IMG/VR virus record: IMGVR_UViG_3300045996_001321
Location: 1-47,089 of that record
Origin: a virus
DNA: 47,089 nucleotides
Reading direction: 5' to 3' (one strand)
Of this stretch, positions 7,629-28,230 are shown one piece after another. Position numbers and translations under genes: made by a program. The notes under the pieces were generated by a model. That model did no database searches and had not been told where the DNA came from. It saw only the letters and a program-made list of their open reading frames with translations. Position 1 is the first letter of the stretch, and every line of letters begins with the position of its first letter.

Positions 7629-8542
7629 GCTGTCTCTCCGACGAACATGCTGAGCTGGTCGACGGCGCGGTTTATCCACAGAACTTCAGTCCGTGTGCGG
7701 GCGCCGTCGGCGAGGGATGGCCGCTCTATCCGTCGCCAGCTTGCCAGAGCGTTGTCGTAGAGCGCGCTGGGGTAGCCACTGACGAGGACCGCGCCCTTCA
7801 TCCCCAGGAGGGCCGACAACAGGGCCTCGTGATCGGCAACGGTCATCTCGTGCTGATAGTCGCGCCCCTTATCGCGGGTTTCGGGTAGGTACGGCGGATC
7901 GACAAAATGAACCGTTTCAGGCGCGTCATGCGTCCGCATTACTTCCGTAGCGTCGCGCCGCTCGATGACGACGCCTTGTAGCCGTTCAACGATGCCCGCC
8001 AACGCGTCGGGATAGTTGATCCAGTCGTGCGCGGGCGTTGTGCCTGAACGGTTTGAATTTGACCGGAAGCCGGTTTTGCGAGCGTGACCGTTGCTTCCAA
8101 AGCCCATAAAACTTCTGATGACGAGGCGCCGAGCGCGCTCTACAGGACACTCGGCAGCCTCATAGGATTCGGCGAATTCCGAGCGGGCAAACGGCGTCAA
8201 CCGCAAAAGGTCAATCAGCCTGGGTGCGTCGGTCGAGCGCAGCACTTGGAAGAGATTGACCACCTCGTCATCAAGGTCATTGTAGACTTCGGCATAGGAG
8301 CGGGGTTTGCGGAGCAGCACGGACGCGGCACCGCCGAATGGCTCGACGTAACAACGGTGCTTCGGAAGATGGGAGATAATCCACGGCGCAAGGATCCACT
8401 TGCCGCCATGCCAGCGGAGCGCTGGACGGCGAACCGCGCCGCGCAATGGGACGAGCGCCTTTGGCTGAGACGCGGAGCGGCTCAGGTCCGAAGGACCGCC
8501 GGCCCGGTCCTCGCGAAGTGAGGATGCGCCCTGATGGCTCAT
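7625..8542 (-). CDS. D12-class N6-adenine DNA methyltransferase
   Basis: 305 residues. It methylates adenine in a short recognition sequence using S-adenosylmethionine. Family marks are RWHGGKWILAPWI (residues 43-55, replacing the FRYPGGK-type motif), the SAM-binding YVEPFGGAASVLL (65-77), YNDLDDEVVNLF and the catalytic VDPPY (near residue 216). The first 35 residues (GASSLREDRAGGPSDLSRSA) are not part of the fold and coincide with a copy of the dispersed palindromic repeat at 8462-8535. It may protect phage DNA from host restriction or time replication. No matching endonuclease is seen nearby. Confidence 0.93.
   Translation of the reverse strand: MSHQGASSLREDRAGGPSDLSRSASQPKALVPLRGAVRRPALRWHGGKWILAPWIISHLPKHRCYVEPFGGAASVLLRKPRSYAEVYNDLDDEVVNLFQVLRSTDAPRLIDLLRLTPFARSEFAESYEAAECPVERARRLVIRSFMGFGSNGHARKTGFRSNSNRSGTTPAHDWINYPDALAGIVERLQGVVIERRDATEVMRTHDAPETVHFVDPPYLPETRDKGRDYQHEMTVADHEALLSALLGMKGAVLVSGYPSALYDNALASWRRIERPSLADGARTRTEVLWINRAVDQLSMFVGETA
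8462..8535 (-). repeat. Dispersed palindromic repeat, copy in methylase N-terminus
   Basis: Shares an 18-nt block (8467-8484) with the copy at 21799-21816 at one mismatch. It codes for part of the extra N-terminal residues of the methylase. Confidence 0.55.
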
Positions 8543-8925
8543 TTCCCCTCCTTCAGCGTGGAGGGCGACGACAGTACGGCGGTCAGCTCGAATATGGCCT
8601 GATCAAGCTCTTGATCCAGGATACGGCGACGCTGCACCTTGTAGCGCGCATCATGAACGGTAGACGGATCACGGCCTCCGAAGCGGCGGCCGATCTCTGC
8701 ATCCGAGCGTCCGGTGAAGTTCTTGGCAAGGTACATGCTAAGTTGGCGGGGGTGAGACAGATCGCGGTCGTGCCGTGGCCCTCTCAAATCGTCCACTGTG
8801 AGCCCGTAGCGGGCCGCTACAGCGCGTTGGACGTCGGCGATGAGCAAGCGTCGCCCCGGAGCGCCTGGCACAGGGTAGCCGCGGCGGGCGAGGTCGTGGC
8901 GAAAGGCGCTGACTGTCTCGATCAC
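8539..8925 (-). CDS. DnaA domain IV-like DNA-binding protein
   Basis: 128 residues from GTG 8925, which overlaps the upstream stop (GTGA). Residues 30-110 match the DnaA C-terminal DNA-binding domain: LLIADVQRAVAARYGLTVDDL, then HPRQLSMYLAKNFTGRSDAEIGRRF and the signature GGRDPSTVHDA (83-93, DnaA GGRDHSTVLHA). The ATPase domain of DnaA is absent. It probably binds DnaA-box-like sites at the phage origin, or competes with host DnaA. It lies in the replication block with the methylase and the organiser-like protein. Confidence 0.9.
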   Translation of the reverse strand: MIETVSAFRHDLARRGYPVPGAPGRRLLIADVQRAVAARYGLTVDDLRGPRHDRDLSHPRQLSMYLAKNFTGRSDAEIGRRFGGRDPSTVHDARYKVQRRRILDQELDQAIFELTAVLSSPSTLKEGK

Positions 8926-9344
8926 GCCGCCACCCTCCACTCTCGCACGTTCGTCGGAGCTCCACGCTCCTTGAGGAACGCGAAGGCCTCTTCAGGCGAT
9001 GTGACGATGCCTGGAGCCCAGCCCATCTCGGACAGGGTTTCGTGGATCTTGAGCTGTTCGGGGCGGACGTCGCTCGGCGAATAGCGGGGCCTCTTCACCT
9101 CCATCAGGCAATGGCCCCTGTTCCAGTAGCAAATGAGGTCCGGAAAGCCGTTCTTCAGCCCGTCGCCTTTCAGTGCTCCGATCTGGATTCCGCGCTCCTG
9201 TCTGTCACCGGCCAGGTGGGCGCCGTTCGGGACGTGGGCGACGAACACGCGCGGGAAGGCTGTCCCCATCATGGCGAGGATCGATCGTTGAACTTGGCGC
9301 TCCGTCGGAGTCTCTCGCTGTTGGGGTTTTGAGGGGGTTGTCAT
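8922..9344 (-). CDS. VRR-NUC domain nuclease
   Basis: 140 residues. The VRR-NUC fold is a PD-(D/E)XK nuclease. Visible marks are TERQVQRSILAMM at the N-terminus, GLKNGFPDLICYW (Asp of the active site) and CLMEVKRP (E-x-K). A GRPEQL-like segment (VRPEQLKIHETLSEMGW) ends the domain. Phage members act as stand-alone structure-specific or junction-resolving nucleases during replication or recombination. Its start ATG overlaps the upstream stop. Confidence 0.92.
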   Translation of the reverse strand: MTTPSKPQQRETPTERQVQRSILAMMGTAFPRVFVAHVPNGAHLAGDRQERGIQIGALKGDGLKNGFPDLICYWNRGHCLMEVKRPRYSPSDVRPEQLKIHETLSEMGWAPGIVTSPEEAFAFLKERGAPTNVREWRVAA

Positions 9345-9745
9345 AATGGTTGATTTTCAGGATGTTGGGCGATTGCGCTATGCGCACCGCCGCTTTCGTC
9401 CGCTTCGCGGATCGAGCCCGTTCCGGTCTCGACCAAAGGCTTCAATCGGCTATCGCAGCCGTGCAACTCAGTTAGAGGCCCGAGATAGACCGGCGGATAT
9501 TGCTTGAAAGCCGGGAAGTTGAACTGATCGGCGGTCGGATCGAGCGCCCGCCCGTCCTCCAACCTGATCCAGACGTGGTTGCAGTCGCCAAGATCGCTTT
9601 CAACCGTCTCGCATGGCACGCCCGAGCAACGCAAAAGCGCGGCAAGCGGCCACGACACGGCAGCGCACATGAACCGGCTGGGATGGCCGCCTAGGATGCC
9701 TTCGCGAAACTCGCTAGCGAACTCGATTAGTTCCGCGTCCGTCAA
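9341..9745 (-). CDS. Small transglutaminase/cysteine-protease-like protein
   Basis: 134 residues from TTG 9745, which overlaps the upstream stop (TTGA). GTG 9772 is an alternative. The order Cys (FMCAAVSWPLAALLRCSG), His (CNHVWIRLEDG) and Asp (ALDPTADQF) matches the Cys-His-Asp triad of transglutaminase-like folds, with the Cys at the start of a helix. The C-terminal 35 residues overlap a palindromic repeat copy at 9363-9460 and are probably not part of the fold. Its substrate is unknown; it could be a protease, amidase or deamidase acting on host proteins. The fold is inferred from motif spacing. Confidence 0.7.
   Translation of the reverse strand: MTDAELIEFASEFREGILGGHPSRFMCAAVSWPLAALLRCSGVPCETVESDLGDCNHVWIRLEDGRALDPTADQFNFPAFKQYPPVYLGPLTELHGCDSRLKPLVETGTGSIREADESGGAHSAIAQHPENQPL
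9363..9460 (+). repeat. Dispersed palindromic repeat copy
   Basis: Begins GTTGGGCGATTGCGC and contains CGAGCCCGTTCCGGTCTCG (9413-9431), identical to 28179-28197. It is made of short TTCG-type self-complementary units. It is used as the coding end of the cysteine-protease-like gene. Confidence 0.65.
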
Positions 9746-10089
9746 GCCGCCATCTCCCGTTCGATCTGGCACAGCTTCGTGGCGGCGGCATATTTGCGCG
9801 GCTGTTCGGCGAGGCGGCGCAGTTCGGCTTCCTCAGCCTCAGCGTCGGCCCGTGCTCGGAACATCGTGCATTGCTCGGCGCCAAGGTCATCCTTGGTGCG
9901 CGGAATCAAGAGATCCAGGATCGTCTCTATCGCCTTGCCGCGCGGGTCCTCATTGCATTGGTCGTAATTGAACAGGTCGTGGATCAGCATGACGGGACAG
10001 CCGCCGTCGGTGCCGCGCGAATGGATGCAGTTGTCGCAATACTCGCCCTCGTAGATCATGCCGGAGGTGCCGTTGGGAAAGTAGGCCAT
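9742..10089 (-). CDS. Hypothetical Cys-rich phage protein
   Basis: 115 residues. The N-terminus MIYEGEYCDNCIHSRGTDGGCPV carries a Cys-x2-Cys and a further Cys that may bind metal, and is followed by NYDQCNED. The rest is a helical acidic region (ARADAEAEEAELRRLAEQ). Proteins of this look are common in phages, without known function. The ATG shares bases with the TAA stop upstream. Confidence 0.75.
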   Translation of the reverse strand: MAYFPNGTSGMIYEGEYCDNCIHSRGTDGGCPVMLIHDLFNYDQCNEDPRGKAIETILDLLIPRTKDDLGAEQCTMFRARADAEAEEAELRRLAEQPRKYAAATKLCQIEREMAA

Positions 10090-10337
10090 TAGGCAGCCTC
10101 CGCTTCGATCTGACCGGGTTCGGTCTCGTCTAGAGCCCGCCGCAGGCACGCCGTCGCCAGCTTGAACACCTCGGCTTTGGCCTTCTGCTTGCGGCGCTCG
10201 GCGGGCGTGAAACCAGTCCAGCCGCTGGACAAAATCGTCCAACCAGTCTCCGACACCGCCTGGTCGAAAATGGCGCGGATGCGCTTTCGCTCCGCCTCGG
10301 CCGAACGAGTGAGCTTGCGTGGGGGTGTCGCGCTCAC
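10089..10337 (-). CDS. Hypothetical early protein
   Basis: 82 residues from GTG, overlapping the upstream stop (GTGA). It is Arg/Lys-rich and probably helical, with a Trp pair (GWTILSSGWTGFTPAERRK). No family is recognised. Confidence 0.65.
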   Translation of the reverse strand: MSATPPRKLTRSAEAERKRIRAIFDQAVSETGWTILSSGWTGFTPAERRKQKAKAEVFKLATACLRRALDETEPGQIEAEAA

Positions 10338-10462
10338 CCTCCCTTCGCCTTGCCATCTGGAGAGGGCCGGTGCTGTGCGGGAGGATCGAACTCAGCGAGG
10401 TCGGGCCAGTCGGTCGTACGGGGGCCTATCCAGCCTCCGGGGGGGGTGTCGTCGTGGGTCAT
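10334..10462 (-). CDS. Tiny Pro-rich hypothetical protein
   Basis: 42 residues, with Trp-Pro and Asp-Pro motifs (GWIGPRTTDWPDLAEFDPP). It is supported mainly by ATGA and GTGA overlaps with the genes on both sides, which is the pattern of this whole operon. Confidence 0.6.
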   Translation of the reverse strand: MTHDDTPPGGWIGPRTTDWPDLAEFDPPAQHRPSPDGKAKGG

Positions 10463-10665
10463 GTCGCTATCTTCCCTTCGATCTGGCCGAGCTTAGGGGC
10501 GGCTTCGTAGCGAGCCCGGTCATAGGCCCGACGAGCCTCCAGCGCCGCTTCCTCGTCCGTCAGTCCGCGCCCTTCGCACTCAGGGCAGCGGATGTAGTAC
10601 AGGGTGCGCCCGTGGCGATTTATTACAGGGTAGGTCCCCTCGCCTTCGCAGACAGCGCAGGTCAT
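10459..10665 (-). CDS. DnaJ-type zinc-finger small protein
   Basis: 68 residues. Two CxxCxGxG units, CAVCEGEG (residues 3-10) and CPECEGRG, together form one zinc site as in the Cys-rich domain of DnaJ. The rest is an Ala/Arg/Glu helix. It may bind nucleic acid or unfolded protein. Its ATG overlaps the upstream stop (ATGA). Confidence 0.8.
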   Translation of the reverse strand: MTCAVCEGEGTYPVINRHGRTLYYIRCPECEGRGLTDEEAALEARRAYDRARYEAAPKLGQIEGKIAT

Positions 10666-11132
10666 GCGACTGCCTTCGGCTTGCGAAGCTGGCGGACATG
10701 GGCGATAAGCCTCTCGACCCGGAGCAAGTCCTCCTCGGGGATCGTGCGCGATTCGTGTTCGGTGATCGCCACCCCGCCGTGGCTTTCCGGGTGCTCGGCC
10801 TGGGCGACATGATGTAGAAGCGTGGCGAGCGGCAATGTGCCGGGGTCGCTGGAGCAAACCGAGTCCGACGGGACCGCTCGGAGATTGTATCTCCGGAGCA
10901 CCGCTGCTATAGCGGTTTCGTCCTTCGCGAGGACATTGAAGATGTGAATTGCGCTGGGCGTGCTGCCCTTGTGGATGTTGCCGAGCTGGCGAACGGTAAG
11001 ACCGGCCGCGAGCGCGAACTTACCTTTCCCGCCCAGCTTGGAAGTCAGCCGCGACCAGTCCTCCATTAGGACATCGTGGAACTCGTCTTCCGTTAAGGGG
11101 TGCGGTTTCGGAACGACACGGTCAATGCTCAC
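10662..11132 (-). CDS. Putative HTH regulator (CII-like position)
   Basis: 156 residues from GTG 11132 (GTGA overlap). Residues 20-75 look like a helix-turn-helix fold: DVLMEDWSRLTSKLGGKGKF, then ALAAGLTVRQLGNIHKGSTP with the recognition-helix pattern. The C-terminal part is helical (EEDLLRVERLIAHVRQLRK). It could be a CII- or repressor-type phage regulator. No target site was identified. Confidence 0.65.
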   Translation of the reverse strand: MSIDRVVPKPHPLTEDEFHDVLMEDWSRLTSKLGGKGKFALAAGLTVRQLGNIHKGSTPSAIHIFNVLAKDETAIAAVLRRYNLRAVPSDSVCSSDPGTLPLATLLHHVAQAEHPESHGGVAITEHESRTIPEEDLLRVERLIAHVRQLRKPKAVA

Positions 11133-11269
11133 GGTCTAGCCCCGCTTTCATGGAAGGAGTTGTTCAGGATCGGCGCAGGAAAGCAGTCCCCATAGGCTCG
11201 CTGGTGCGCCGTATCCTTCAACGCATCCCTCCGCCGAGCGATGAAGCGCGAGATGGCGGGGATACGCAT
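11129..11269 (-). CDS. Small hypothetical protein
   Basis: 46 residues with basic N-terminal half (RFIARRRDALKDTAHQRAYG). It starts 3 nt after the upstream stop, and its TGA overlaps the next GTG. The linkage argues that it is real; the function is unknown. Confidence 0.5.
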   Translation of the reverse strand: MRIPAISRFIARRRDALKDTAHQRAYGDCFPAPILNNSFHESGARP

Positions 11270-11272
11270 GGA

Positions 11273-11683
11273 TCAGGCGGCCTCCCCTTGCTGCGCACGA
11301 GCAGCCCAGTGCGTCAGAAATTGGATGAAGCGGTCGAAGTCGCACTCCTTCCACTCGCCGACGTGGCCACCCTTGATCACTTTCAGGCCAAAGATTTCGG
11401 AGGTTCGATAATCGCAGCGAACGACAAGAACCTTGATCCGCTCGGAGAGGGCCGTCAGCGCCTGGAAAGCGCGCTGTTGTCCTCCCGTCGCGTCGGCGCC
11501 GTTCATCTTAAACTCCACCACCAAAAAGTTTCCGCCGAGCTCCACGAAGCCATCGAGGTCGGTGAAGTTTATTCCTCGGGGGAAGCACTGGGCGAGGTGC
11601 TCAATGTCGAAATGGCGGTGGTAATTGAAGCATCCGCTGATGATGCAATTCCACTCCAAGGGGTTGAAGCCGGGAGGGTTCAT
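11273..11683 (-). CDS. PD-(D/E)XK-like phage protein
   Basis: 136 residues. The stretch INFTDLDGFVELGGNFLVVEFK has the shape of a PD-(D/E)XK core: Asp after a turn, a beta strand, then E-x-K. YRTSEIFGLKVIKGG follows. It is likely a small nuclease or an inactive relative. It is the next gene after the ParB-Dam fusion, with an ATGA overlap, so it may act with it on phage or host DNA. No restriction specificity can be read from sequence. Confidence 0.7.
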   Translation of the reverse strand: MNPPGFNPLEWNCIISGCFNYHRHFDIEHLAQCFPRGINFTDLDGFVELGGNFLVVEFKMNGADATGGQQRAFQALTALSERIKVLVVRCDYRTSEIFGLKVIKGGHVGEWKECDFDRFIQFLTHWAARAQQGEAA

Positions 11684-12771
11684 TGACGCACCTCCACGAC
11701 AAATCCGACATCGGCAAAGTGGGCGGTGAACGTCTGGAGGCGTGCGCCGAAATAGAAGAATGCCTGCCCCTGCGTCGGCGCCGCCACCCTTCCGTCAGGC
11801 GAAACGAATTTGATTCTGCCGCGCGTGAAACAGATGGCCGTCGCCGCGCTCGCGAGCTTCTGGAACCACGCGGTATCTGTGTAATTGTGCGTGAGCATGA
11901 TGGCCTCGGAGACACGTCCCGCCTCGCGCTCGGCGATCATCTTCTCAGCAAAATCCCCGATGGCCGGCTGGGCGTAGGGCGGGTTCAGCCACACCTTGCC
12001 GCACCACTTCTGCGCCAAGCCGTTGTCGGCTTCGGTAAAGAAGGTTTTCGCCTTGACGGTGCGCTGGGCTTCCGGATGGCTGGCCGGGTCGACCTGGATG
12101 GTTCCGAGCACCTTGCGCGCCAACTCGACGTATTCGGGCGGCGTGAACCACTCGTTGTTGCCGGTGAAGCTGGTGCGGTTGACGGTCTTCTGCTCGACGG
12201 CCTCAGCCTGCTCCTCTTTCGGCAGACGGGCGATCTCTGCCGCCGCGGAGACGGCGATCTCGCCGGTTTCTACGGCATCGACCAACTCCGGGATGCCGTC
12301 GCGCTGAACGGTTTTGGCATTGCGAAGCGACCGCTCGCTCACATTCAGCAACGCCGCCGCCTCAGGCTGGCTTACGGGGGCCACAACTTCCGGCAAATTT
12401 GCCGAAGGTTGGATGTCAGTTCGGGCGCCTTGCGGCATCTTCGCCAGCTTAGCCGCCACCATGGCGCGCTGGCTTTCGGACAAGTGGCGCCGAGCGAGAT
12501 TCTTCGCGATGACGAAGGCGAGCGGGTTGGAGCCATGATACTCGATGCGGGGATATTCCATCCCGAGGTCGCGAGCCGCCATGTAGCGGTTGCGCCCGTC
12601 CAGGATCGTGTCGCCGATGAAGACGATGGGCTCGAGAACGCCGTTCTTGGCGATGTCGGCCTTCAGCTCCTCGAAAGCCGCGCCCTCGATCCAGGGGAAG
12701 AGGTCGGCAAATTCGTGAAACCTCACGCCTACGGACGGGACGCGCTCCAGGAGGACGGGCTGCGTAGCCAT
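11680..12771 (-). CDS. ParB-like domain fused to phage Dam-type adenine methylase
   Basis: 363 residues. Residues 1-115 form a ParB/Srx-like domain (FEELKADIAKNGVLEPIVF, ILDGRNRYMAARDLG, FVIAKNLARRHLSESQRAMV), and 115-200 a helix-turn-helix linker (QPEAAALLNVSERSLRNAK). Residues 205-363 match the phage DNA N-6-adenine methyltransferase family (WFTPPEYVELAR, IQVDPASHPEAQ, AKTFFTEADNGL, VWLNPPYAQP). The NPPY motif is the catalytic site. ParB-like heads are often found on phage methylases. It is the second adenine methylase in this phage. Confidence 0.93.
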   Translation of the reverse strand: MATQPVLLERVPSVGVRFHEFADLFPWIEGAAFEELKADIAKNGVLEPIVFIGDTILDGRNRYMAARDLGMEYPRIEYHGSNPLAFVIAKNLARRHLSESQRAMVAAKLAKMPQGARTDIQPSANLPEVVAPVSQPEAAALLNVSERSLRNAKTVQRDGIPELVDAVETGEIAVSAAAEIARLPKEEQAEAVEQKTVNRTSFTGNNEWFTPPEYVELARKVLGTIQVDPASHPEAQRTVKAKTFFTEADNGLAQKWCGKVWLNPPYAQPAIGDFAEKMIAEREAGRVSEAIMLTHNYTDTAWFQKLASAATAICFTRGRIKFVSPDGRVAAPTQGQAFFYFGARLQTFTAHFADVGFVVEVRQ

Positions 12772-13517: not shown

Positions 13518-13523
13518 GCCTGC

Positions 13524-13552: not shown

Positions 13553-13561
13553 GAGGCCGAA

Positions 13562-13610: not shown

Positions 13611-13611
13611 C

Positions 13612-13941: not shown

Positions 13942-13945
13942 AAAG

Positions 13946-15349: not shown

Positions 15350-15432
15350 CGACCCCCTCCGAACTCGACAGGCTGGCAGAGCGCGCTTCGCCCTGTCGGG
15401 CGGCCCCAGCTATCGCAAGGAGCCTCGCATGA
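15346..15432 (+). CDS. Possible 28-residue peptide gene
   Basis: Starts MTTPSELDRLAERASP and links its neighbours by ATGA at both ends. Too short to judge from composition alone; it may be a leader peptide that couples translation. Confidence 0.35.
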   Translation: MTTPSELDRLAERASPCRAAPAIARSLA

Positions 15433-15836
15433 CGGATGAACTTGGCCGCTTCGGCCACCACCCCGACTCCGCCATCGATTTCTGCATTGAGGTGGAGGAG
15501 CTTGAAGCCATCGCTGAAAATGCGCGGCTCGGGCTGACCGGCAACGGCCACGAAGCTGACCGCACTACGCTCGATAGCCGAATTGAGCGCGCCATGGATT
15601 TCCGAGTGGGCGGCGATAAGAACTGCGTCACGGCGAAAGCTGGACTGCGCATTCTCGCGGCGGCTCGCGGCTTCGATGTGAGTGGGGCGGCTGCCTACGC
15701 CGGGCAGCCGATGCGGCGCACTCGCGATAGCGGCAGCGACCGTCAGGCGGAGACCGTGCAACGGGCTCCGGGCGAAGCCTCGCAGAGCGGCCCCGCAGGG
15801 GCATCGCCCAACCCTGAGGACCAAACCCATGGGTAA
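15429..15836 (+). CDS. Hypothetical protein with repeat-derived tail
   Basis: 135 residues. Residues 1-95 read as a normal helical protein (IDFCIEVEELEAIAENARLG). The last 40 (RRTRDSGSDRQAETVQRAPG onward) are low-complexity and coded by a palindromic repeat copy at 15745-15825. No function is recognised. Confidence 0.65.
   Translation: MTDELGRFGHHPDSAIDFCIEVEELEAIAENARLGLTGNGHEADRTTLDSRIERAMDFRVGGDKNCVTAKAGLRILAAARGFDVSGAAAYAGQPMRRTRDSGSDRQAETVQRAPGEASQSGPAGASPNPEDQTHG
15745..15825 (-). repeat. Dispersed palindromic repeat copy
   Basis: Read on the minus strand it begins GGTTGGGCGATGCCCC and runs to GAGCCCGTTGCACGGTCTC, matching the family outline. It codes for the tail of the preceding protein. 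Confidence 0.6.
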
Positions 15837-16122: not shown

Positions 16123-16298
16123 CTTCCTTCCGCAAAGATCGGGCGATTGCGCTTCGCGCACCGTCGCCAGTCGCGAGTGGAGCCCGCAAGCGGTCTCCAG
16201 CCTTCGGCCGACTGTCAACTATCGCGGAGCGCGTCTCCGTCGCCGCGATAATCCTCGTCCTCTGCCTCGCCATCCCCGCCATTTTTGCAGGAGATTGA
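16119..16298 (+). CDS. Small single-pass membrane protein with repeat-derived N-terminus
   Basis: 59 residues. The C-terminal third (VAAIILVLCLAIPAIFA) is a membrane segment. Residues 7-34 are Arg/Ala/Ser-rich and coded by a palindromic repeat copy. ATGA overlap upstream; 3 nt to the next gene. It looks like a membrane peptide that gained a cytoplasmic tail by repeat insertion. Confidence 0.55.
   Translation: MTSFRKDRAIALRAPSPVASGARKRSPAFGRLSTIAERVSVAAIILVLCLAIPAIFAGD
16140..16230 (+). repeat. Dispersed palindromic repeat copy
   Basis: Starts GGGCGATTGCGCTTCGCGC and continues through GGAGCCCGCAAGCGGTCTCC. Inside the coding sequence of the small membrane protein. Confidence 0.6.
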
Positions 16299-16301: not shown

Positions 16302-16757
16302 ATGACCTTGGAAACCTCTACCCGATCGCCGCTGGCACATCAGCCCGTCTTCCCCGTCGCGACCTACACGGACGAATACGGCGACACTCGCATCATCCAC
16401 GCTGAGCGTGGCAAAGGGGGTAAGCTTCGGCGCCTGAAAGGCATGGATACGCCTGCGGGGCTGCTCAACCGAGCTATCGCGATTCTTCTGGGCCGGCGAG
16501 TTCGCGAGCGCCGCCTCCATCTGGGCCTCACTATGCCGGAAGTGGCGAAGCGGGCGGGGCTCGCCAGCGCCAGCCCAAAGCAATACATCTACCATATCGA
16601 AACGGCCCATCGCCGCGAAGGGGTGCGACTCGGGACGCTGTTCGCCCTTGCCCACGCGCTGGAGTGCGAGCCCGCCGACCTGTTGCCGAGCGCAGCCGAG
16701 GCGATGAATCTGGCAAGTGTGAAGCCCGCCACTTCCGACACGCTGGCGGTCCTGTGA
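16302..16757 (+). CDS. XRE-family HTH regulator
   Basis: 151 residues with AGGAGA before the ATG. Residues 60-130 are an XRE helix-turn-helix: GRRVRERRLHLGLTMPEVAK, RAGLASASPKQYIYHIE, RLGTLFALAHALECEPADLL. The N-terminal 50 residues are of unknown fold. It may act as a second regulator of accessory or recombination genes. Confidence 0.8.
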   Translation: MTLETSTRSPLAHQPVFPVATYTDEYGDTRIIHAERGKGGKLRRLKGMDTPAGLLNRAIAILLGRRVRERRLHLGLTMPEVAKRAGLASASPKQYIYHIETAHRREGVRLGTLFALAHALECEPADLLPSAAEAMNLASVKPATSDTLAVL

Positions 16758-16978
16758 GCATTACAAGCAGCCCCTTCGGCGGGACGAAGCTTACCGGCAT
16801 CGACGCGCGGCGATTTCGCGAGATGACGGGTCTTGACAGGACGGCCCCGGCGTCAGTCGACACTCACCCGGAGGGCGGAGACGCCTTGGCGGCTCCGTTC
16901 ATGAGTGGCGCGGTGCCCGCCGAAGAGCGGGCAGACGCCCAAAAACCTGCATCGAAAGGCACATCCAATGCCACCTAA
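16754..16978 (+). CDS. Small hypothetical protein with repeat-derived tail
   Basis: 74 residues from GTG (GTGA overlap). Residues 1-32 (ITSSPFGGTKLTGIDARRF) look like a genuine domain fragment. The remainder is coded by a palindromic repeat copy at 16845-16957. Confidence 0.5.
   Translation: MSITSSPFGGTKLTGIDARRFREMTGLDRTAPASVDTHPEGGDALAAPFMSGAVPAEERADAQKPASKGTSNAT
16845..16957 (-). repeat. Dispersed palindromic repeat copy
   Basis: Shares GCGTCAGTCGACACTC (16850-16865) exactly with the copy at 26062-26077. Minus-strand reading ends the same way as other members (GCGTCTGCCCGCTCTTCGG start). Confidence 0.6.
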
Positions 16979-19920: not shown

Positions 19921-20187
19921 ATGAAGACCGAATACGGTATCCCTGTGCCTCGCGGAGTCCCGAAGGATTGGGCGGCGAGCTTGAATGCTGAACGCGGGTC
20001 CGTTCCTGACGCGGCGGTATTCGGTTCCGTCAGAATGGGGCGGGCCGACCAACTGCGTCACTTGGCGAGATCGCTTTCAGCGCCTCCGCTTGATCGTCGC
20101 CCACTATCCCAACGGTCGCTCTGCCACCGTTCGTATCGACGCCAACGGAAATCGGAAATGGACCGAATTCGGGGACATTGCGCATGA
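19921..20187 (+). CDS. Hypothetical ORF, frame uncertain (a)
   Basis: 88 residues starting MKTEYGIPVPRGVPKDWAA, which looks natural; after about residue 45 the text becomes Arg/Ser-rich and unlike a fold. It ends with an ATGA overlap on the HNH gene. It overlaps the alternative frame at 19985-20200. One of the two, or a frameshifted join, is real. Confidence 0.35.
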   Translation: MKTEYGIPVPRGVPKDWAASLNAERGSVPDAAVFGSVRMGRADQLRHLARSLSAPPLDRRPLSQRSLCHRSYRRQRKSEMDRIRGHCA

Positions 20188-20200
20188 CGATTCAAAGTGA
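19985..20200 (+). CDS. Hypothetical ORF, frame uncertain (b)
   Basis: 71 residues. The sequence after residue 15 looks like a real beta-rich protein (WRDRFQRLRLIVAHYPNGRS, then ATVRIDANGNRKWTEFGDIA). Better composition than the overlapping frame, but less fitting start and end positions. Confidence 0.45.
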   Translation: MLNAGPFLTRRYSVPSEWGGPTNCVTWRDRFQRLRLIVAHYPNGRSATVRIDANGNRKWTEFGDIAHDDSK

Positions 20201-20783
20201 GGATGGGCGTTCCGGCGCTGACGCGCCGTCGGGCTGCCAGCCTGAGGAGTGGCGGGATGTTGTCGGCTACGAGGGGCTTTACGAGGTCTCGAGCCTCGGA
20301 AGGGTCCGTTCCAGGTTCGCGGTCAACGGGCACTGTCTAAGCACGGCTGGCACCGACAAGGACGGCTATCCCGTCGTGTCGCTGAGCGCGCCAGATGGGC
20401 GGCATACGTTCACGCTACATCGCGTCGTTTGCCGCGCCTTCCACGGCGAGCCGACCGCGCTGCACAACGAGGTGGCGCACCTGGACGGGGTTCGGACCAA
20501 TGCTCGCGCTGACAACCTCCAATGGGCCAGCAAGGTTGAAAACCACTTTCACATGCGCGCCCACGGGACTCATCCGGCAGGCGACCGCCATCCCAAGGCA
20601 CGCCTGACTTGGGGCGACGTGCATGACATTAGGGCGCTGCCTGATCCCGTGAATAACGCCGCTGTCGGGCGCCGATACGGCGTCACGGCTGGCGCAATTT
20701 GGGATGTTCGCCGGGGAAGGACATGGCGCGCCCAACCTTCATCGGATGTGACCGAACTTAAGAGGGAAGGAGAGGGACAATGA
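20184..20783 (+). CDS. NUMOD4-HNH homing-type endonuclease
   Basis: 199 residues. NUMOD4 motif EEWRDVVGYEGLYEVSSLGR at residues 21-40; HNH_3 core LHRVVCRAFHGEPT...NEVAHLDGVRTNARADNLQWAS (residues 74-115); then a C-terminal helix-turn-helix-like segment (AAVGRRYGVTAGAIWDVRRG). Free-standing NUMOD-HNH enzymes cut DNA and move their own gene between phages. It is in line with its neighbours, with an ATGA overlap, so it has not obviously interrupted a gene. Confidence 0.9.
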   Translation: MTIQSEDGRSGADAPSGCQPEEWRDVVGYEGLYEVSSLGRVRSRFAVNGHCLSTAGTDKDGYPVVSLSAPDGRHTFTLHRVVCRAFHGEPTALHNEVAHLDGVRTNARADNLQWASKVENHFHMRAHGTHPAGDRHPKARLTWGDVHDIRALPDPVNNAAVGRRYGVTAGAIWDVRRGRTWRAQPSSDVTELKREGEGQ

Positions 20784-21205
20784 ACGCGAGAGAAGCTGCA
20801 CAGACGCTTGATGGCAGCGATTACGGCAAGGAGGGGTCGGCGGGTCTGTTCGCGGAGATGAAGGCTGCCGGACTCGTCGCCGCGTTTGGGGCCAGCGACG
20901 ACTTGATCGAGTTCCGGGGCGCCATTGACGACGAACAGGGCGCAGGTGAGCATAGCACACATTCGCTGGCCCGAAAGGGTCTTCTCAAAAGCGAGTGCGA
21001 CTGCGACGACTGCCCCTACTACAAGAAAATCGAGGACGCTGCGCCGTTCATTGAGGCCATCTGGGATGATGGCGGTTTCTCGTGGCGCTATTGTTTGGTC
21101 GGCCCCGATGGATCGCCCATCGCGCACGAAAAATTCCTCGTCATGGAGGACGGCGACACCTATTGCGAGGGCATCGTCTTCGCGCTCGCGGACTTGCCGG
21201 AATGA
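20780..21205 (+). CDS. Hypothetical acidic protein
   Basis: 141 residues, acidic. It carries a compact Cys cluster CDCDDCPYYKK and a beta-type region WRYCLVGPDGSPIAHEKFLV. Similar early phage proteins exist without function. ATGA overlaps at both ends. Confidence 0.65.
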   Translation: MNAREAAQTLDGSDYGKEGSAGLFAEMKAAGLVAAFGASDDLIEFRGAIDDEQGAGEHSTHSLARKGLLKSECDCDDCPYYKKIEDAAPFIEAIWDDGGFSWRYCLVGPDGSPIAHEKFLVMEDGDTYCEGIVFALADLPE

Positions 21206-22017
21206 CCCGCGATAGCAACAGCGGCCCGCAGGGCGAAAACCCGGAGCGTAGCGGAGGGGTTGAGTGCGAAGCACCGCAGAGCGGCGGGAGCGAAGCGAGC
21301 GCATCGCCCAAACTTCAAACTCGCGAGAACATGCTTCTCAGCCTCGACCGCGAACAACTCCTTAACGAGTCCCGATCTCCTACCGAAGGAGTGAAAGAGC
21401 GGGCGAGGGAATTGCTGGCGGCTGAGTACGAGGCCGACGACGTCTTGCTCGGCTATGCCCATCACATTCGGCACGGTTCGGGAGGGTTTTTCGCGCCAGC
21501 AATTCGTGCCATAACTGCCGCCCTCTCACCCCCTATCCAGGATGAGCGACCGACAGCCTCTGGGCGCGTGCCTGCGGCACCGGGCTCTCGTGAACCGAGC
21601 CCTTCGGTCTCGGCCGCAAGCGGCTTCGATCCCTCGCGCGCGGTCGAAATCTTAGAAGACGCACTCCAAGAGGTCGCCGAACGGTACAGCCCAGAAGGTA
21701 TGGGCACGGCGAACGCGTTAGCCGCAGTTGCTGTCGACGCTCTCGAAGAACTGGCCGAACTTCGCGCCCGCGATAGGGATCGAAGCGGCGAAGCCGATGA
21801 GACGCGTAGCGGCTCAGCCGAAGGCGAGAGCCCGGCCCGAAGGGATCGCCCAACCTCTAGCGTATCCGATAAGCCGGAAGGGGAAGCGCTGTGGGAGGCG
21901 CTGAAGAAAAACGACCGCAATCCTCACGGACCGACTTTGCACATTCTCAAGTCGCAATTTCTGGCGGTGGTTGCCTCTCTCCCCACCGATAAGACGGGAG
22001 GCGATCATGTCCGGTGA
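21202..22017 (+). CDS. Mosaic protein built around three repeat copies
   Basis: 271 residues. Normal helical segments (about 38-110, 148-193 and 228-271; for example NMLLSLDREQLLNESRSPTE, RAVEILEDALQEVAERYSPE, EALWEALKKNDRNPHGPTLH) alternate with three low-complexity segments coded by palindromic repeats at 21222-21315, 21560-21640 and 21765-21862. The helical blocks resemble small ead/Ea-type early proteins. The gene seems to be several small ORFs joined by in-frame repeats, or one gene interrupted by them. Confidence 0.6.
   Translation: MTRDSNSGPQGENPERSGGVECEAPQSGGSEASASPKLQTRENMLLSLDREQLLNESRSPTEGVKERARELLAAEYEADDVLLGYAHHIRHGSGGFFAPAIRAITAALSPPIQDERPTASGRVPAAPGSREPSPSVSAASGFDPSRAVEILEDALQEVAERYSPEGMGTANALAAVAVDALEELAELRARDRDRSGEADETRSGSAEGESPARRDRPTSSVSDKPEGEALWEALKKNDRNPHGPTLHILKSQFLAVVASLPTDKTGGDHVR
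21222..21315 (-). repeat. Dispersed palindromic repeat copy
   Basis: Minus reading: AGTTTGGGCGATGCGCTCGC, then TTCG-centred units and CTCCGCTACGCTCCGGG. Codes for residues about 7-38 of the mosaic protein. Confidence 0.6.
21560..21640 (+). repeat. Dispersed palindromic repeat copy
   Basis: GGGCGCGTGCCTGCGGC..., then CGAGCCCTTCGGTCTCGG and GCTTCGATCC, closely parallel to the copy at 28145-28230 (GGGCGCGTGTATCCGGC..., GCTTCGATCC). Confidence 0.6.
21765..21862 (-). repeat. Dispersed palindromic repeat copy
   Basis: Minus reading starts AGGTTGGGCGATCCCTTCGG and includes the 18-nt block shared with 8467-8484. Confidence 0.6.
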
Positions 22018-23622: not shown

Positions 23623-23866
23623 AGAATACCCCTACCCGCCCCGGATGATGACCCGCGCCAGGGCAGCGCACTATTGCGACCTGCCCGAAGCCGAGTTCGA
23701 GCGCGAGGTCGCCGCAGGCACCTTGCCGCCGCCGATCCTGCTGGGTCGAAAGCCGCACTGGAGCCGCAAGGATCTGGACGAGCGGCTTGACATGCTGGCC
23801 GGCGGCGATGCTCCTGACTGGAGAGCGAATTCCAACTTCTACAGCAGGAAGAAGCGTGTCGCGTAA
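23615..23866 (+). CDS. Putative excisionase/AlpA-like HTH protein
   Basis: 83 residues. YPPRMMTRARAAHYCDLPEA then EFEREVAAGTLPPPILLGRK and PHWSRKDLDERLDML is the winged helix pattern of phage excisionases and AlpA regulators. It lies just upstream of the integrase and overlaps it by 11 nt, the usual pairing for direction control of integration. Confidence 0.8.
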   Translation: MAREYPYPPRMMTRARAAHYCDLPEAEFEREVAAGTLPPPILLGRKPHWSRKDLDERLDMLAGGDAPDWRANSNFYSRKKRVA

Positions 23867-24911
23867 GCAACATACCCTGGAGCACGTCAAGCAGGTGAAG
23901 CGAGGCAATGTGACCTATCTCTATTTCAATACCGGAGAGAAGGTGGACAAGAGGCCCGTTTACGTCGCGCTGGGCCGCAAGGGCTCGCTCGAGGTGGGCA
24001 CGCGCTACTCGGCGGCCCTGGCAGCACGCACACGCCGGGCTGGGCTTCCTTCGTCCCTGACGGTGCCGCAGCTCGTCCAGCGCTATGAGCGCAGCCCGGA
24101 GTTCACCCGCAAGAGCGTAGGGACGCAGCGAGCCTACAGCGTCTATCTCAACCGCTTGGCGAAAGAGTTCAACACGGCGCCGGCCGGCGCCTTCGCCGCG
24201 AGCGACATCTATGCGCTGCTGGACGAGATGGGGAACCGCCCGGCCGCAGTGCAAATGCTCCTCCTGGCAGGCGGGCAGATGTTCGCTTGGGCGCTCAAAC
24301 GAAAATTCGTCATCCAGAATCCCTTCGACGGGATCGATCGCGAGGATTGGGAGGCGCGGCAATATGAGCCTTGGCCGGAGGCGGTCGTTGAGGAAGCGCT
24401 GGCGGACCCACGCTTGGAACTGGCCGTCGCCCTGCTCTACTTCACGGGCCAGCGCATCGGCGACTGTTGCAAGATGAAATGGGCCGACGTCGACGGCGAC
24501 GAGATCCACGTCGTCCAGCAAAAGACGGGGAAGGAGCTTTTCATCCCGGTTCACTCCCGGCTGGCGGATATCCTCGCCCGGGCGCCTCGGGATGGCGATA
24601 CGATCCTCGCCGACGTGCGAGGCTTCAAAGCGAAGGATCAGACGATCCGGGGGTGGATTGCCGCGTTCGGCGTGAAGAAGGGCATCAAGCTCGTCCCCCA
24701 CGGGCTCCGTAAAAATGCGGTCAACGCGCTTTTGGAGGCCGGATGCACGGCGGCACAGGTGTCCTCGATCACCGGACAGTCGCTCCAGATGATCGAGCAC
24801 TACGCCCGCAAACGCAACAACCGGCGGCTTGGCCGGGCCGCCATGGCTAAATGGGAACGGGCCGGAAACGGGGAAACGGCGGGGAAAACTTCGCAGGAAG
24901 GTGAGGAATAA
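23856..24911 (+). CDS. int: Tyrosine recombinase (phage integrase)
   Basis: 351 residues from GTG 23856 with AGGAAG upstream. The N-terminal arm-binding and core-binding domains span 1-165. The catalytic domain has Arg200 (TGQRIGDCCKMKW), a beta-hairpin Lys (QQKTGKELF), His282-x-x-Arg285 (PHGLRKNA) and the nucleophile Tyr316 (MIEHYARKR). The second His of the R-H-R-H-Y set is replaced by Gln (ITGQSL), which is tolerated in some family members. It inserts the phage into the host chromosome, so this is a temperate phage. Confidence 0.96.
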   Translation: MSRKQHTLEHVKQVKRGNVTYLYFNTGEKVDKRPVYVALGRKGSLEVGTRYSAALAARTRRAGLPSSLTVPQLVQRYERSPEFTRKSVGTQRAYSVYLNRLAKEFNTAPAGAFAASDIYALLDEMGNRPAAVQMLLLAGGQMFAWALKRKFVIQNPFDGIDREDWEARQYEPWPEAVVEEALADPRLELAVALLYFTGQRIGDCCKMKWADVDGDEIHVVQQKTGKELFIPVHSRLADILARAPRDGDTILADVRGFKAKDQTIRGWIAAFGVKKGIKLVPHGLRKNAVNALLEAGCTAAQVSSITGQSLQMIEHYARKRNNRRLGRAAMAKWERAGNGETAGKTSQEGEE

Positions 24912-25048
24912 TGCGGCATTGCGTTTATAGCGCCGTTAGTTTAGCCTCCGCAGGAATGCTGGGGTTTCGCCCTTCGTTCCGGGAAAACGGCGCCCTTTGC
25001 AGCCAGCGACTTAGCGACCCTCAGGAAAACGAAGGAGGCCGAAAATGA
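24911..25048 (+). CDS. Possible small ORF after integrase
   Basis: 45 residues. It begins within the integrase stop (TAATG) and ends in an ATGA overlap with the next gene, but its composition is not strongly protein-like. The same 133 nt could hold the phage attachment site, which I could not identify without the host sequence. Confidence 0.3.
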   Translation: MRHCVYSAVSLASAGMLGFRPSFRENGALCSQRLSDPQENEGGRK

Positions 25049-25551
25049 CGGCGAACATCCATCAAATGCTGATCGACGGGGTGCTCCGGCAATTCCCGGA
25101 GGCCAAGACTGCGGGGCTATGGAAGGCGCTGCGAGCTCACCCCGAGCTTGATTACGCGGCAGACCTCCTGGCAAACGACAAGGAGTGGGCGCAGGCCGTC
25201 AGGTTCGTTCCCGATGCTTGGCTGATAGACTCCGAAAACGGGCTCGTTGTGGTGTTCGAGGCCGTTCACTCCCATGAGGTGTCGGAAGACAAGTTCGCCC
25301 GAATGGTGGAGCTGTCCTGGGCGCTGGACGAAGACTATTTTAGGGTTCTGCTGGTCAGATGCGATGTGACCGGCCGGCGCGCCTACGATGTCCAGTGGAC
25401 GGAACTGGCGATGATCCACGCCGGGCGCGAGATTGGCGATCACACGCTGTGGCAGCGCTACACGGCCGAGCACTGCTCGAGCCTCTTGCAAGACCTTCCC
25501 GAAGAAGCGGCGGCCCCGGTCGAGGCTGACTCCGAACTGGCAGACGCATGA
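25045..25551 (+). CDS. PD-(D/E)XK-like hypothetical protein
   Basis: 168 residues; GGAGG before the ATG. FVPDAWLIDSENGLVVVFEA is consistent with a PD-(D/E)XK core (P-D ... strand ... E), but a Lys after the Glu is lacking (EAVHSH). Possibly an inactive or divergent nuclease. Located between integrase and small accessory genes. Confidence 0.65.
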   Translation: MTANIHQMLIDGVLRQFPEAKTAGLWKALRAHPELDYAADLLANDKEWAQAVRFVPDAWLIDSENGLVVVFEAVHSHEVSEDKFARMVELSWALDEDYFRVLLVRCDVTGRRAYDVQWTELAMIHAGREIGDHTLWQRYTAEHCSSLLQDLPEEAAAPVEADSELADA

Positions 25552-25579
25552 CGGCACATTCTGTTCTTGGGAGGTTCGC

Positions 25580-25819
25580 ATGAGCGTGACAATCGACAGC
25601 CGCATCTACAAGGACTCGTTCTACGGCATCCTGAACGCCAACGGAGCTTTTTGGACGCCGCTAGCCTTCGACAGTCCAGCTAAGGCCGAAAAGCACCTTC
25701 GCGACTTCTTTAATCCCGCCGACTGTCAGTGGCAGGGCATGCGCAGCAAGTTCAGGATCGTGCCTGTCCGGATCCAGCTCACCGCGATCACTGAAGCTGA
25801 CGAGGCCAAAGCAGCATGA
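25580..25819 (+). CDS. Hypothetical accessory protein
   Basis: 79 residues with GGGAGG upstream. Core: YGILNANGAFWTPLAFDSPA, AEKHLRDFFNPADCQW. A compact alpha/beta phage protein without an assigned role. Confidence 0.75.
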   Translation: MSVTIDSRIYKDSFYGILNANGAFWTPLAFDSPAKAEKHLRDFFNPADCQWQGMRSKFRIVPVRIQLTAITEADEAKAA

Positions 25820-26160
25820 CTCCTTCCTCTGCCTTCGGAGGGCAGGCCGTTGTCCGTCCTAACGCGCGGCGGCGCCGGGTTAGTCCGTTCACATCAACGA
25901 TTGGGCGGCTAGCAGAATGCGAAGCTCAGCTAATCAGCGCGCGGGCCGAGATCGAAATGCGCAGCCTCTTCCTGGATGCTGTCTTTGAAGAGGTTCAGCC
26001 AAGCGTCGAGCAGATCATCAAATGGGCTACGCGGGTAGGTGAATTGAGGCGGGAGGCCGCCGCGTCAGTCGACACTCGTCCGAAGGACGGAGACGCGAAG
26101 CAGGCTCCATCGCCGAAGGCGACGACAGCGCGGTGGCGAAGCCAGACGCCAAACCTCTAG
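25816..26160 (+). CDS. Hypothetical protein with repeat-derived tail
   Basis: 114 residues. Residues 25-83 are helical (RLAECEAQLISARAEIEMRS); the last 30 (VDTRPKDGDAKQAPSPKA) come from a palindromic repeat copy. ATGA overlap upstream. Confidence 0.6.
   Translation: MTPSSAFGGQAVVRPNARRRRVSPFTSTIGRLAECEAQLISARAEIEMRSLFLDAVFEEVQPSVEQIIKWATRVGELRREAAASVDTRPKDGDAKQAPSPKATTARWRSQTPNL
26060..26158 (-). repeat. Dispersed palindromic repeat copy
   Basis: Contains GCGTCAGTCGACACTC (26062-26077), shared with 16850-16865. Minus reading begins AGGTTTGGCGTCTGGCTTCG. Confidence 0.6.
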
Positions 26161-26174
26161 CGGAGGGAGAGTAG

Positions 26175-26426
26175 ATGAAGACAATGCGCGAGAGATTGGC
26201 GAGCCGAATTTGCTGCCCGAGCGGGCTTTGCGAGAACGCTGATCAGCAATACGCCGTCTGCCAAGCTCATACCTACCTGAGGACCGCCGATGCCATCCTG
26301 GACGAGCTGCGTGATCCGGATAAGGGGATGCTTGAAGCTGGGGGAGCCTACGAGATCGGGCTCAACGGCTGGCAAGCCATGATCAAGGCCGCCCGTCAGC
26401 CCTCTATAGAGACTGTGGAAAAATGA
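26175..26426 (+). CDS. Hypothetical accessory protein with Cys-rich start
   Basis: 83 residues; GGAGGGAG upstream. RICCPSGLCENADQQYAVCQ carries four Cys that may bind zinc or iron, followed by a helix (RTADAILDELRDPDKGM). Similar to small phage proteins of the EaA/Eae type; function unknown. Confidence 0.7.
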   Translation: MKTMRERLASRICCPSGLCENADQQYAVCQAHTYLRTADAILDELRDPDKGMLEAGGAYEIGLNGWQAMIKAARQPSIETVEK

Positions 26427-26621
26427 AGGTTGGGCGATTTCGCTTCGCGAACCGTCGCTGGTCGGGCTTCGCCCCGAGCCGCTCAGCTTCTCCCTCGGCC
26501 CTGCTTTCGTGCGTGTCCATCCACGCCGCCGCAGCCTCGTGCCAGACCTACCCCGATCTGCATCGGCTCAGACTAGCAAAGGCGTAGCTACCACGAAAGC
26601 GCTATGCGCGCAAGGTCGGAT
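26427..26621 (+). repeat. Non-coding gap containing a palindromic repeat copy
   Basis: The repeat covers about 26427-26510 (GTTGGGCGATTTCGCTTCGC, then GGGCTTCGCCCCGAGCCGC). The remaining bases hold no gene I can support. Confidence 0.6.
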
Positions 26622-26873
26622 ATGGTAGGCAGGGGGATGGATCGTCGACAGATTGCGCTGCGTCTCGGGCTCCTTTTGATGGCGCTCTCAGGCGCGGCCG
26701 GGATGGGGGCAATGTTCTACAGCGCCGGCCTCCAGTCTGCGTATCAGGCGGCTGGTGGCACGGACGTTTTACCGGCCGCGGCCTTTTACCTGAGGCTCGC
26801 ATGGATCGGCCTCGGGACATGCGCCTACTCGGCGATCCTCATTGGCATCTATGTTGTGCGGCACTTGCGATAG
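26622..26873 (+). CDS. Small integral membrane protein
   Basis: 83 residues if ATG 26622 is used; ATG 26604 and 26637 are alternatives. Two membrane segments: LRLGLLLMALSGAAGMGAMF and WIGLGTCAYSAILIGIYVV. The N-terminus and C-terminus are basic, so both are probably cytoplasmic. It could act in superinfection exclusion or lysogenic conversion, given its position at the end of the accessory operon, but nothing proves that. Confidence 0.65.
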   Translation: MVGRGMDRRQIALRLGLLLMALSGAAGMGAMFYSAGLQSAYQAAGGTDVLPAAAFYLRLAWIGLGTCAYSAILIGIYVVRHLR

Positions 26874-26879
26874 TGGCCG

Positions 26880-26955
26880 CCGGGCGCAGCCCTGAGACCA
26901 CTTGCGGACTCGGCCCGAAGGGCGGCAGAGCGGCGGCGAAGCCGCATCGCCCGAC
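26880..26955 (-). repeat. Dispersed palindromic repeat copy
   Basis: Minus reading: AAGTCGGGCGATGCGGCTTC, GCCGCCCTTCGGGCCGAG. Between two genes. Confidence 0.6.
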
Positions 26956-27021
26956 TTATGAAGCTTACGAAACTTACGCAATAACTCGATAAGTTGGCGG
27001 GCACACGCTATAGGGGAAGGT

Positions 27022-27312
27022 ATGGACGACATCCGAATCAGCGAAATCAGTTTCGCCATCGAAGTGCCAGACGTTGAAGCGCCGCTCGCGCTGGTCAAGG
27101 CCGCACGCGAAGAGATCGACCGTCTCCTCTATGCTGAGGTTCTGGGCGCACCCGCCAATCACCGATCGGCGCCTACGAGCTTTCCGTTAAGGCAGCCCCG
27201 GCAAGCCGCTTCGCGTCTTGTCCCTCCGGGTGACGATCCTCGCGCGGCGCCTTGCGCCATAGGCGGTCTTCGGCTATCAAAGGTACGTGAGGGCGCGCGC
27301 CGGGGGCCATAA
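27022..27312 (+). CDS. Last accessory protein of rightward operon
   Basis: 96 residues with GGGGAAGG before the ATG. The first 45 residues (IRISEISFAIEVPDVEAPLA, LVKAAREEIDRLLYAEVLG) look like a small folded unit; the rest is Pro/Arg/Ala-rich and probably unstructured. Function unknown. Confidence 0.6.
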   Translation: MDDIRISEISFAIEVPDVEAPLALVKAAREEIDRLLYAEVLGAPANHRSAPTSFPLRQPRQAASRLVPPGDDPRAAPCAIGGLRLSKVREGARRGP

Positions 27313-27330
27313 CCCCGTCGCAGTCCCGGC

Positions 27331-27377
27331 CGCCAGCGGCCCCGGATGCTGGTAACATTCGGAACCGGCCGCTGGCG
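27331..27377. terminator. Convergent-operon terminator-like inverted repeat
   Basis: CGCCAGCGGCC (27331-27341) and GGCCGCTGGCG (27367-27377), 11-bp perfect arms with a 25-nt loop. It lies where the plus-strand operon (ending 27312) meets the minus-strand late operon (ending 27428). No T-run follows, so it may act as a barrier between transcription units rather than a classical terminator. Confidence 0.5.
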
Positions 27378-27427
27378 CCTAACCCCTCGCCTTGTGAGCC
27401 GCTAGCCCGCGCTTCCGCCGTCGTGAG

Positions 27428-27640
27428 TCATGGCCTCGCCTTCCCCGCTTCCTGCATCCCCTGCCCGGCCTTCTTGCGAGCTGCCACGCCAGCCTCGAGG
27501 GCGACGTTCAGCTCTTCCGCAGTCGCGCCGCCCACAGACTTGCCGAGGCGTCCGACGATGCCCCGCAAGGCCTCTTCGTTCGTTGCCGCCGTCTTGACGA
27601 GGTTCAAGGCGAAGAGGGCGATTTCCCTTACCTGGCTCAT
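27428..27640 (-). CDS. Hypothetical protein, end of late operon
   Basis: 70 residues, helical and Ala-rich (EIALFALNLVKTAATNEEAL; AEELNVALEAGVAARKKAGQ). ATGA overlap with the lipoprotein gene upstream, so the two probably work together. Unknown family. Confidence 0.65.
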   Translation of the reverse strand: MSQVREIALFALNLVKTAATNEEALRGIVGRLGKSVGGATAEELNVALEAGVAARKKAGQGMQEAGKARP

Positions 27641-28122
27641 TTCGAAGATCCTCTCAGGACAGCGGTTGAAATCATTCGGGTGAGCGTGGCATTGTACGCT
27701 CCGGCCTTGGCGAGGTTCTCGGCATAGGCCACGGCGTTGTTGGACTTCCTCGCGAGGCCGGCCATGTCGAGATGATGCTCGATCCGGCAGCGAAGGGCGA
27801 GCGCGGACCCGCCCTCGTCGGTAATGACTGCCAATGATGGCTCCGCGGTCACCATGTCGCAGAAGTTCTCGCGCGCCGTATCCGCGTCCTGAGACCTCGG
27901 AAGCGCGCCGGTCTGGAAAGCCATCGTGCCGGCCAGGAACGTGGTCTCCGCGAGGCTGTTGGCGCCGATGAGGAGGCGTTCGTCAATGGTCGTGGATGAA
28001 GCGGCGATCGGCCTCGCGCTGAGGAACAGCCCCGCCAGTCCCGCGCCCGTCGACGCTATCTCCCCAGCCCCACACCCCCCGAGCAACAGGGGAACGAATA
28101 GCGCAGTGAATCTCTTCTTCAT
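27637..28122 (-). CDS. Putative lipoprotein of the lysis region
   Basis: 161 residues; GGAG before the ATG. Signal peptide of class II with lipobox LLLGGC (Cys17), so lipid-anchored. The mature part is helical (DERLLIGANSLAETTFLAGT) with two Cys (FCDMVTAEP, LRCRIEHH). It could be a spanin-type or virion-exported lipoprotein. It follows the tailspike/lysis-like genes. Confidence 0.75.
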   Translation of the reverse strand: MKKRFTALFVPLLLGGCGAGEIASTGAGLAGLFLSARPIAASSTTIDERLLIGANSLAETTFLAGTMAFQTGALPRSQDADTARENFCDMVTAEPSLAVITDEGGSALALRCRIEHHLDMAGLARKSNNAVAYAENLAKAGAYNATLTRMISTAVLRGSSK

Positions 28123-28144
28123 CTCGTCTCTCCTCGTTGAAGAT

Positions 28145-28230
28145 TTGGGCGCGTGTATCCGGCTCTCGCCCTTCGGGCCGAGCCCGTTCCGGTCTCGTCG
28201 CTTCGCGCTTCGATCCGGCGCGCGGCGACT
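28145..28230 (+). repeat. Dispersed palindromic repeat copy
   Basis: TTTGGGCGCGTGTATCCGGC, then CGAGCCCGTTCCGGTCTCG (28179-28197, identical to 9413-9431). Between the lipoprotein gene and the tRNA-like region. Confidence 0.65.

Follow-up and report, generated by a model that had tools for sequence, protein, structure and literature searches.

Foldable DNA elements of approximately 90 nucleotides in a temperate tailed phage, shared with conjugative plasmids and the filamentous phage Pf1

The DNA analyzed here (the window) is the whole of a virus record of 47,089 bases, IMGVR_UViG_3300045996_001321, in which a family of short palindromic elements is dispersed among and within the genes. Its ends carry a 126-nucleotide (nt) direct repeat (1-126 and 46964-47089, 99% identical), and the window is therefore probably a complete circular contig, from either a circular or a terminally redundant genome. 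Its genes encode a portal, a terminase, head proteins, an integrase, a RecE-like exonuclease, a RecT-like annealing protein, a helix-turn-helix (HTH) regulator and a D12 methylase, a content that indicates a temperate tailed phage. Among bacterial assemblies, the nearest terminase comes from a Sphingomonadales metagenome-assembled genome (72%); a terminase query alone found nothing in the bacterial genome contigs, and the host genomes were reached with an alignment query. The same element is present in the relatives of the window that were found through their terminase.

The repeats are real, and constitute an undescribed family of foldable DNA elements of approximately 90 nt; no earlier account of them was found in the literature searched, which lacked most of the subscription papers. 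A previous sequence-only reading had proposed a family of about twelve palindromic repeats, lying in both orientations and missing from the late genes, and all three points are borne out, as are the exact blocks it had named as shared between copies, each of which is present at the position given for it. The covariance model used here, R1, was built from a six-copy alignment (A5), to which the window contributes a single training copy (8439..8535); aligned by themselves with MAFFT, the window copies gave misaligned hairpins, and the copies of the relatives were needed for A5. Run over the window with the filters off, R1 matches both strands: 11 of the 12 proposed copies reach E<=0.004, the remaining one scores 0.03, and 27141-27247 is a further, thirteenth copy. 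The late region holds no match better than E 0.28. A hand-made descriptor, composed of the outer stem P1 and the GAGC...TCTC hairpin H3, finds eight elements in the window, compared with 0.03 per shuffled window. When the complement strand is folded as DNA, 9/12 window copies reach z scores of -1.7 to -4.5, and those at 21207, 26865 and 27141 fold no better than shuffles.

The architecture of the element consists of a closing helix, P1 (GCGNN/NNCGC), which encloses the hairpin H1, an inner helix, P2, and the hairpins H2, H3 (GAG-C...T-CTC) and H4. Aligned by hand, the order is (G)TTGG, P1a GCGNN, H1, CC, P2a GSG-C-TN, H2, H3, H4, P2b N'A-T-CSC, T, P1b N'N'CGC and RR. IMG/VR was scanned with a pattern, and R1 then returned 121 matches from the 80 loci searched; together with the first set, these make up 137 distinct elements, with up to 14 on a single phage contig. 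The two variable pairs of P1 occur in eight main allele combinations, and both are Watson-Crick in 125/137 elements, against a mean of 23 and a maximum of 40 when the partners are shuffled. The pairs of H1 and H3 interchange freely between C-G and G-C, and P2 also covaries, GSG with CSC and N with N'. The elements are GC-rich (0.53-0.79 in the matches, mostly 0.63-0.76), and no TATAAT-like stretch is seen in them. The Rfam search of the window returned only a tRNA up to E 5, and the elements of plasmid F and a Salmonella plasmid were unmatched up to E 3.

The pairs and loops of the element point to single-stranded DNA, rather than RNA, as the form in which the structure is maintained. Summed over P1, H1 and H3, there are approximately nine G.T and nine A.C pairs alongside some 844 Watson-Crick pairs, whereas in an RNA helix G.U should be tolerated better than A.C. 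H3 and P2 each retain a C.T mismatch (102/105 and 103/109, respectively), and self-correction of the palindrome was rejected as the source of the covariation, given that it should have erased this mismatch. The triloops of hairpins with stems of at least four pairs are TNC in 177 cases and GNA in one, and the complement strand thus carries C(GNA)G loops, which form very stable DNA mini-hairpins. With DNA parameters, it is the complement strand that folds better in 130/137 elements. The rarity of wobble pairs, the retained mismatch, the loop bias and the folding of the complement are read together as the result of selection on folded single-stranded DNA.

The majority of the window copies overlap or adjoin the ends of predicted open reading frames (ORFs). 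The strongest match, the training copy 8439..8535 (-; P1 GCGCA/TGCGC; R1 E 1.6e-17), lies at the N-terminus of the D12 methylase ORF 7625-8542(-), where the D12 domain begins only at residue 44 and the stretch that precedes it is made by the element, in agreement with the view that copies lie in ORFs as tails; its orthologue is present in a relative, L071. The copy at 9364..9458 (+; GCGAT/ATCGC; E 3.6e-10) is antisense at the 3' end of ORF 9341-9745(-), and its counterpart at the same place in L071 is 92.6% identical, though the gene that it ends is a different one. An antisense C-terminal tail is formed in ORF 15429-15836(+) by the copy at 15722..15812 (-; GCGAT/ATCGC; E 1.9e-7), while the HTH regulator ORF, 16302-16757, stands between two copies that face it, 16138..16227 on its left (+; GCGAT/ATCGC; E 1e-5; DNA fold z -2.85) and 16848..16943 on its right (-; GCGTC/GACGC; E 2e-6; z -4.5).

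The divergent copy at 21207..21313 (-; E 0.03), with an outer stem GCGAT/ATCGC recognized by eye, begins just past the end of ORF 20780-21205(+), and the adjacent ORF 21202-22017(+) contains two copies. One of these, 21558..21641 (+; GCGCG/CGCGC; E 3e-9), belongs to a subtype without H2 and has CTCTCGTGAACCGAGCC in common with the copies upstream of ardC; the other, 21768..21854 (-; GCGAT/ATCGC; E 2e-9), is 96% identical to Pf1 in its first 28 nt. Further along, 26060..26154 (-; GCGTC/GACGC; E 1.4e-8) forms the C-terminal tail of ORF 25957-26160(+), and ORF 26622-26873(+) has a copy with a partly degenerate right half on its left, 26429..26531 (+; E 0.0036), and 26865..26956 (-; GCGAT/ATCGC; E 5.5e-5) at its right end. 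The copy at 27141..27247 (+; E 3e-5) is the one absent from the earlier list, and the last, 28143..28225 (+; GCGCG/CGCGC; E 2.3e-6), is flanked by ORF 27637-28122(-) and by the tRNA-Gln gene at 28428. A partial element start, GATAGGGCGATGCCTTCGGC, is found at 28504-28526 (-), adjoining this tRNA-Gln gene (28428-28501), and is perhaps a fragment of another copy.

The element is not confined to phages: full-length copies are also found in plasmids (including F and R100), alphaproteobacterial genomes and the filamentous phage Pf1. A BLAST search with two phage copies led to enterobacterial plasmids and Pf1, where R1 confirmed full-length elements, and the phage, plasmid and Pf1 copies are very probably members of one family. 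F-like plasmids reportedly possess single-strand promoters and initiation sites, the Frpo and ssi of Masai and Arai (1997). In F, the two copies, 58088-58174 (R1 E 1.5e-8) and 63476-63562 (6e-8), lie within the two Frpo intergenic regions (Frpo1/Frpo2), each followed after 469-470 nt by a leading gene, which is ssb in one case and the second leading-region gene in the other; R100 has one copy (E 1.6e-8) with the same spacing. In F, R100 and Salmonella and Enterobacter plasmids, the element precedes early genes of the leading region and lies on the same strand as they do, which is not the case in the tailed phages. BLAST relatives of the F copy occur in 4,233 plasmid records. Two MOBF plasmids have five and four copies, on one strand only, in a region of anti-restriction and toxin-antitoxin genes, some of them in the gap that precedes the antirestriction gene; in a betaproteobacterial plasmid ssb lies downstream of the element, and further plasmid copies come from Bradyrhizobium, Xanthobacter, Methylocystis, Klebsiella and Denitratisoma. 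Some of the copies outside tailed phages resemble window copy 21558-21641 in primary sequence as well, through CTCTCGTGAACCGAGCC.

In bacterial genomes (alphaproteobacterial and related), where only the best candidates were scored, 11 of the 17 hits are immediately followed by a codirectional ArdC gene, and one by an ArdA gene. The host genomes contain one or two copies, and only in a minority of genomes, for which reason a host REP-type repeat was rejected. Pf1 has a single element, antisense to its genes, which overlaps the end of PA0719 (L226 2001-2097) and is conserved in 21/21 matching Pf-type records. PA0719 is annotated as a "putative toxin" in some Pf records. A weak match in a Rhizobium plasmid (L267 2487-2560, E 0.014) lies in a defense-like neighborhood, close to a TIR-domain gene and to one whose annotation is a Shedu immune nuclease.

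In the tailed phages, placement follows the orientation of the gene. Based on the ORFs predicted by our own codon-usage caller, and counting the elements that lie within them, 33/36 sense copies are found near the ORF start, at a median distance of 17.5 nt, and 32/38 antisense copies near the ORF end, at a median of 30 nt from it, a rule with a Fisher p of 1.3e-11. Among element neighbors within 1.2 kb of one another, 31/58 face inward, and many phage ORFs bear one element at each end. The tails are not universal among homologous proteins, given that the RusA-like family includes a member with the element as a C-terminal tail (L140), one with an N-terminal tail (L065), and four with none (L075, L037, L005 and L074). 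The borders of the element are sharp, and the ends of alignments between phages fall within 60 nt of an element in 31 cases, compared with 16.6 expected and at most 34 in 300 random sets, with pairs of high-scoring segments counted twice. One homology of 411 nt between G104 and G001 stops 12-15 nt from the two G104 elements. Ten element-flanked phage proteins had no match in Pfam, and the ORFs that bear an element at both ends and have no such match (L126 311-1018 and 1015-1506; L107 2741-3277; L135 1011-1517; L103 3735-4250; L033 4019-4417) are candidates for unrecognized anti-defense genes.

A miniature mobile repeat, of the Rickettsia palindromic element, REP/RAYT or MITE type, spread by transposition and tolerated only at protein ends, might account for the many copies in both orientations, their sharp borders and the tails that vary among the RusA homologues. 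This explanation appears unlikely, given the strict orientation by gene end, the covariation with a retained mismatch, the constant place beside Frpo and ardC, and the few copies in bacterial genomes; no target-site duplication was seen by eye at the 31 inward pairs, and no transposase turned up with the element, although no search was aimed at transposases. The likeness to the Rickettsia palindromic elements, which are dispersed palindromic repeats that lie in ORFs and are tolerated in proteins, had been drawn from the sequence alone, and it stands insofar as the palindromes are dispersed, lie in ORFs and vary between homologues, some of which lack the insertion. A gene-invading repeat of the Rickettsia type is not supported, since the present element is placed by rule at ORF ends, covaries, keeps its mismatch and is common to plasmids and a single-stranded DNA phage; nor is the element free of a fixed gene association, with ArdC or ArdA downstream of 12/17 bacterial-genome hits.

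The inward-facing pairs around single genes suggest another possibility, that the elements are recombination joints, short folded sites for the exchange of cassettes between phages and plasmids, comparable to the folded single strands of attC. The excess of alignment ends near elements is consistent with this, as are the G104/G001 homology and the L071 element, which is so similar to that of the window while the adjoining gene differs. The enrichment is modest and includes the double counting, however, no recombinase is known, and the paired elements differ in their P1 alleles, so that the pairs are not tuned to each other; a role of this type is considered improbable. The integron attC itself, considered because many copies begin with GTTGGGC, was rejected, given that this start is variable and has no RYYYAAC partner. 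A structured RNA of early transcripts, such as a leader, a small RNA or a terminator-like structure, would explain the strong covariation and the mostly sense, upstream position in plasmids and bacterial genomes. It is nevertheless very doubtful, in that G.U is no more frequent than A.C, the tetraloops of the complement strand are mostly GNYA rather than GNRA, both strands are used in the phages, the element of Pf1 runs antisense to the genes there, and Rfam had no match for the element in the window or the plasmids.

Overall, the copies look like signals of mobile DNA that act on single strands more than like random insertions. A single-strand signal of the ssi/Frpo class, linked to entry and carried by the phages in arrays at gene edges, is a function to which we would give about an even chance. 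The T-strand of F serves as template for the leading genes, and hence carries the complement of the element, and the virion strand of filamentous phages is the sense strand, so that in Pf1, where the element is antisense, the virion strand carries the complement as well. Gene orientation and established knowledge thus suggest that the entering strand would present the same face of the element in both cases. No promoter for gene expression can account for Pf1, given that the incoming strand is no template for sense mRNA, while a start site for the complementary strand, or a landing site for a protein that reads single strands, would suit both. The replication or transcription machinery of the host may recognize the element as such an initiation or landing signal, and priming or transcription from it would then cross the adjoining gene. 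In tailed phages, the inward orientation would give each strand of a gene an active face close to its 3' side, and copying or transcription of the strand from there would cross the gene; the single strands are assumed to arise during replication or RecE/RecT recombination. The arrays would edge early accessory genes, with copies that also become translated as tails.

Several observations weigh against this single-strand signal. Tailed phages inject double-stranded DNA, which leaves the source of single strands there an assumption, and we know of no protein partner of the element. The bias between TNC and GNA loops is weak outside the phages (12 to 4). In F, the element and the AT-rich Frpo hairpin are approximately 245 nt apart, and the element is therefore not the promoter hairpin itself. 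In the stretch of ColIb-P9 searched there was no match, and R388 (L261) has only weak ones (20077-20190(-) and 24083-24196(-), E 0.2-0.3), which means that the element is not present in every leading region. The two R388 matches occupy gaps that precede leading genes, in one instance a metallopeptidase (ArdC-like) gene, and are perhaps diverged members.

Repeated small elements are also found at the boundaries of early or accessory genes in other phages, as in the PeSL cassettes of T4-type phages and the SAS/ESAS of cluster K mycobacteriophages, which carry promoters or short asymmetric boxes; the present element, by contrast, is a multi-hairpin fold held in common with plasmids and Pf1. A further likeness is to Frpo, described as a 328-bp region with a promoter-like stem-loop that serves early expression and possibly priming (PMC7690428, PMC9849209, PMC11541004). 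Frpo/ssi sites and the element have in common that they lie in the leading region, precede ssb and anti-restriction genes, consist of folded DNA and have several copies on one strand; the two F matches lie inside the Frpo intergenic regions themselves. Frpo differs in having -35/-10 boxes in its AT-rich hairpin. The GC-rich element lacks these boxes, and in Pf1 and the tailed phages it is found with no Frpo at all; in F it is a separate module within the intergenic regions that hold Frpo. EGeRS1 of the pLS20 plasmids of Bacillus, a sequence of 420-750 bp, is reported to block read-through transcription (PMC8708921). As described, it resembles the element in its repetition, its richness in inverted repeats and its position upstream of ardC and other establishment genes, and differs in its host and its length, compared with approximately 90 nt here.

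One fold ties four kinds of mobile DNA together, and offers a handle on the treatment of single-stranded DNA in plasmid leading regions and phage early regions. The Frpo regions of F gain a second structured module, which can be deleted separately, and the element-flanked phage ORFs become a list of candidate anti-defense genes. More speculatively, a single fold in single-stranded DNA might serve as a common entry or establishment signal for the mobile DNA of proteobacteria, in conjugative plasmids as well as in filamentous phage and tailed temperate phages, and the phage genes bracketed by it might be unrecognized early cassettes, probably anti-defense, that move between plasmids and phages. 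A direct repeat of a different kind is also present in the window, with two 51-nt units (9736-9786 and 10453-10503, 78% identical) that overlap the starts of minus-strand ORFs.

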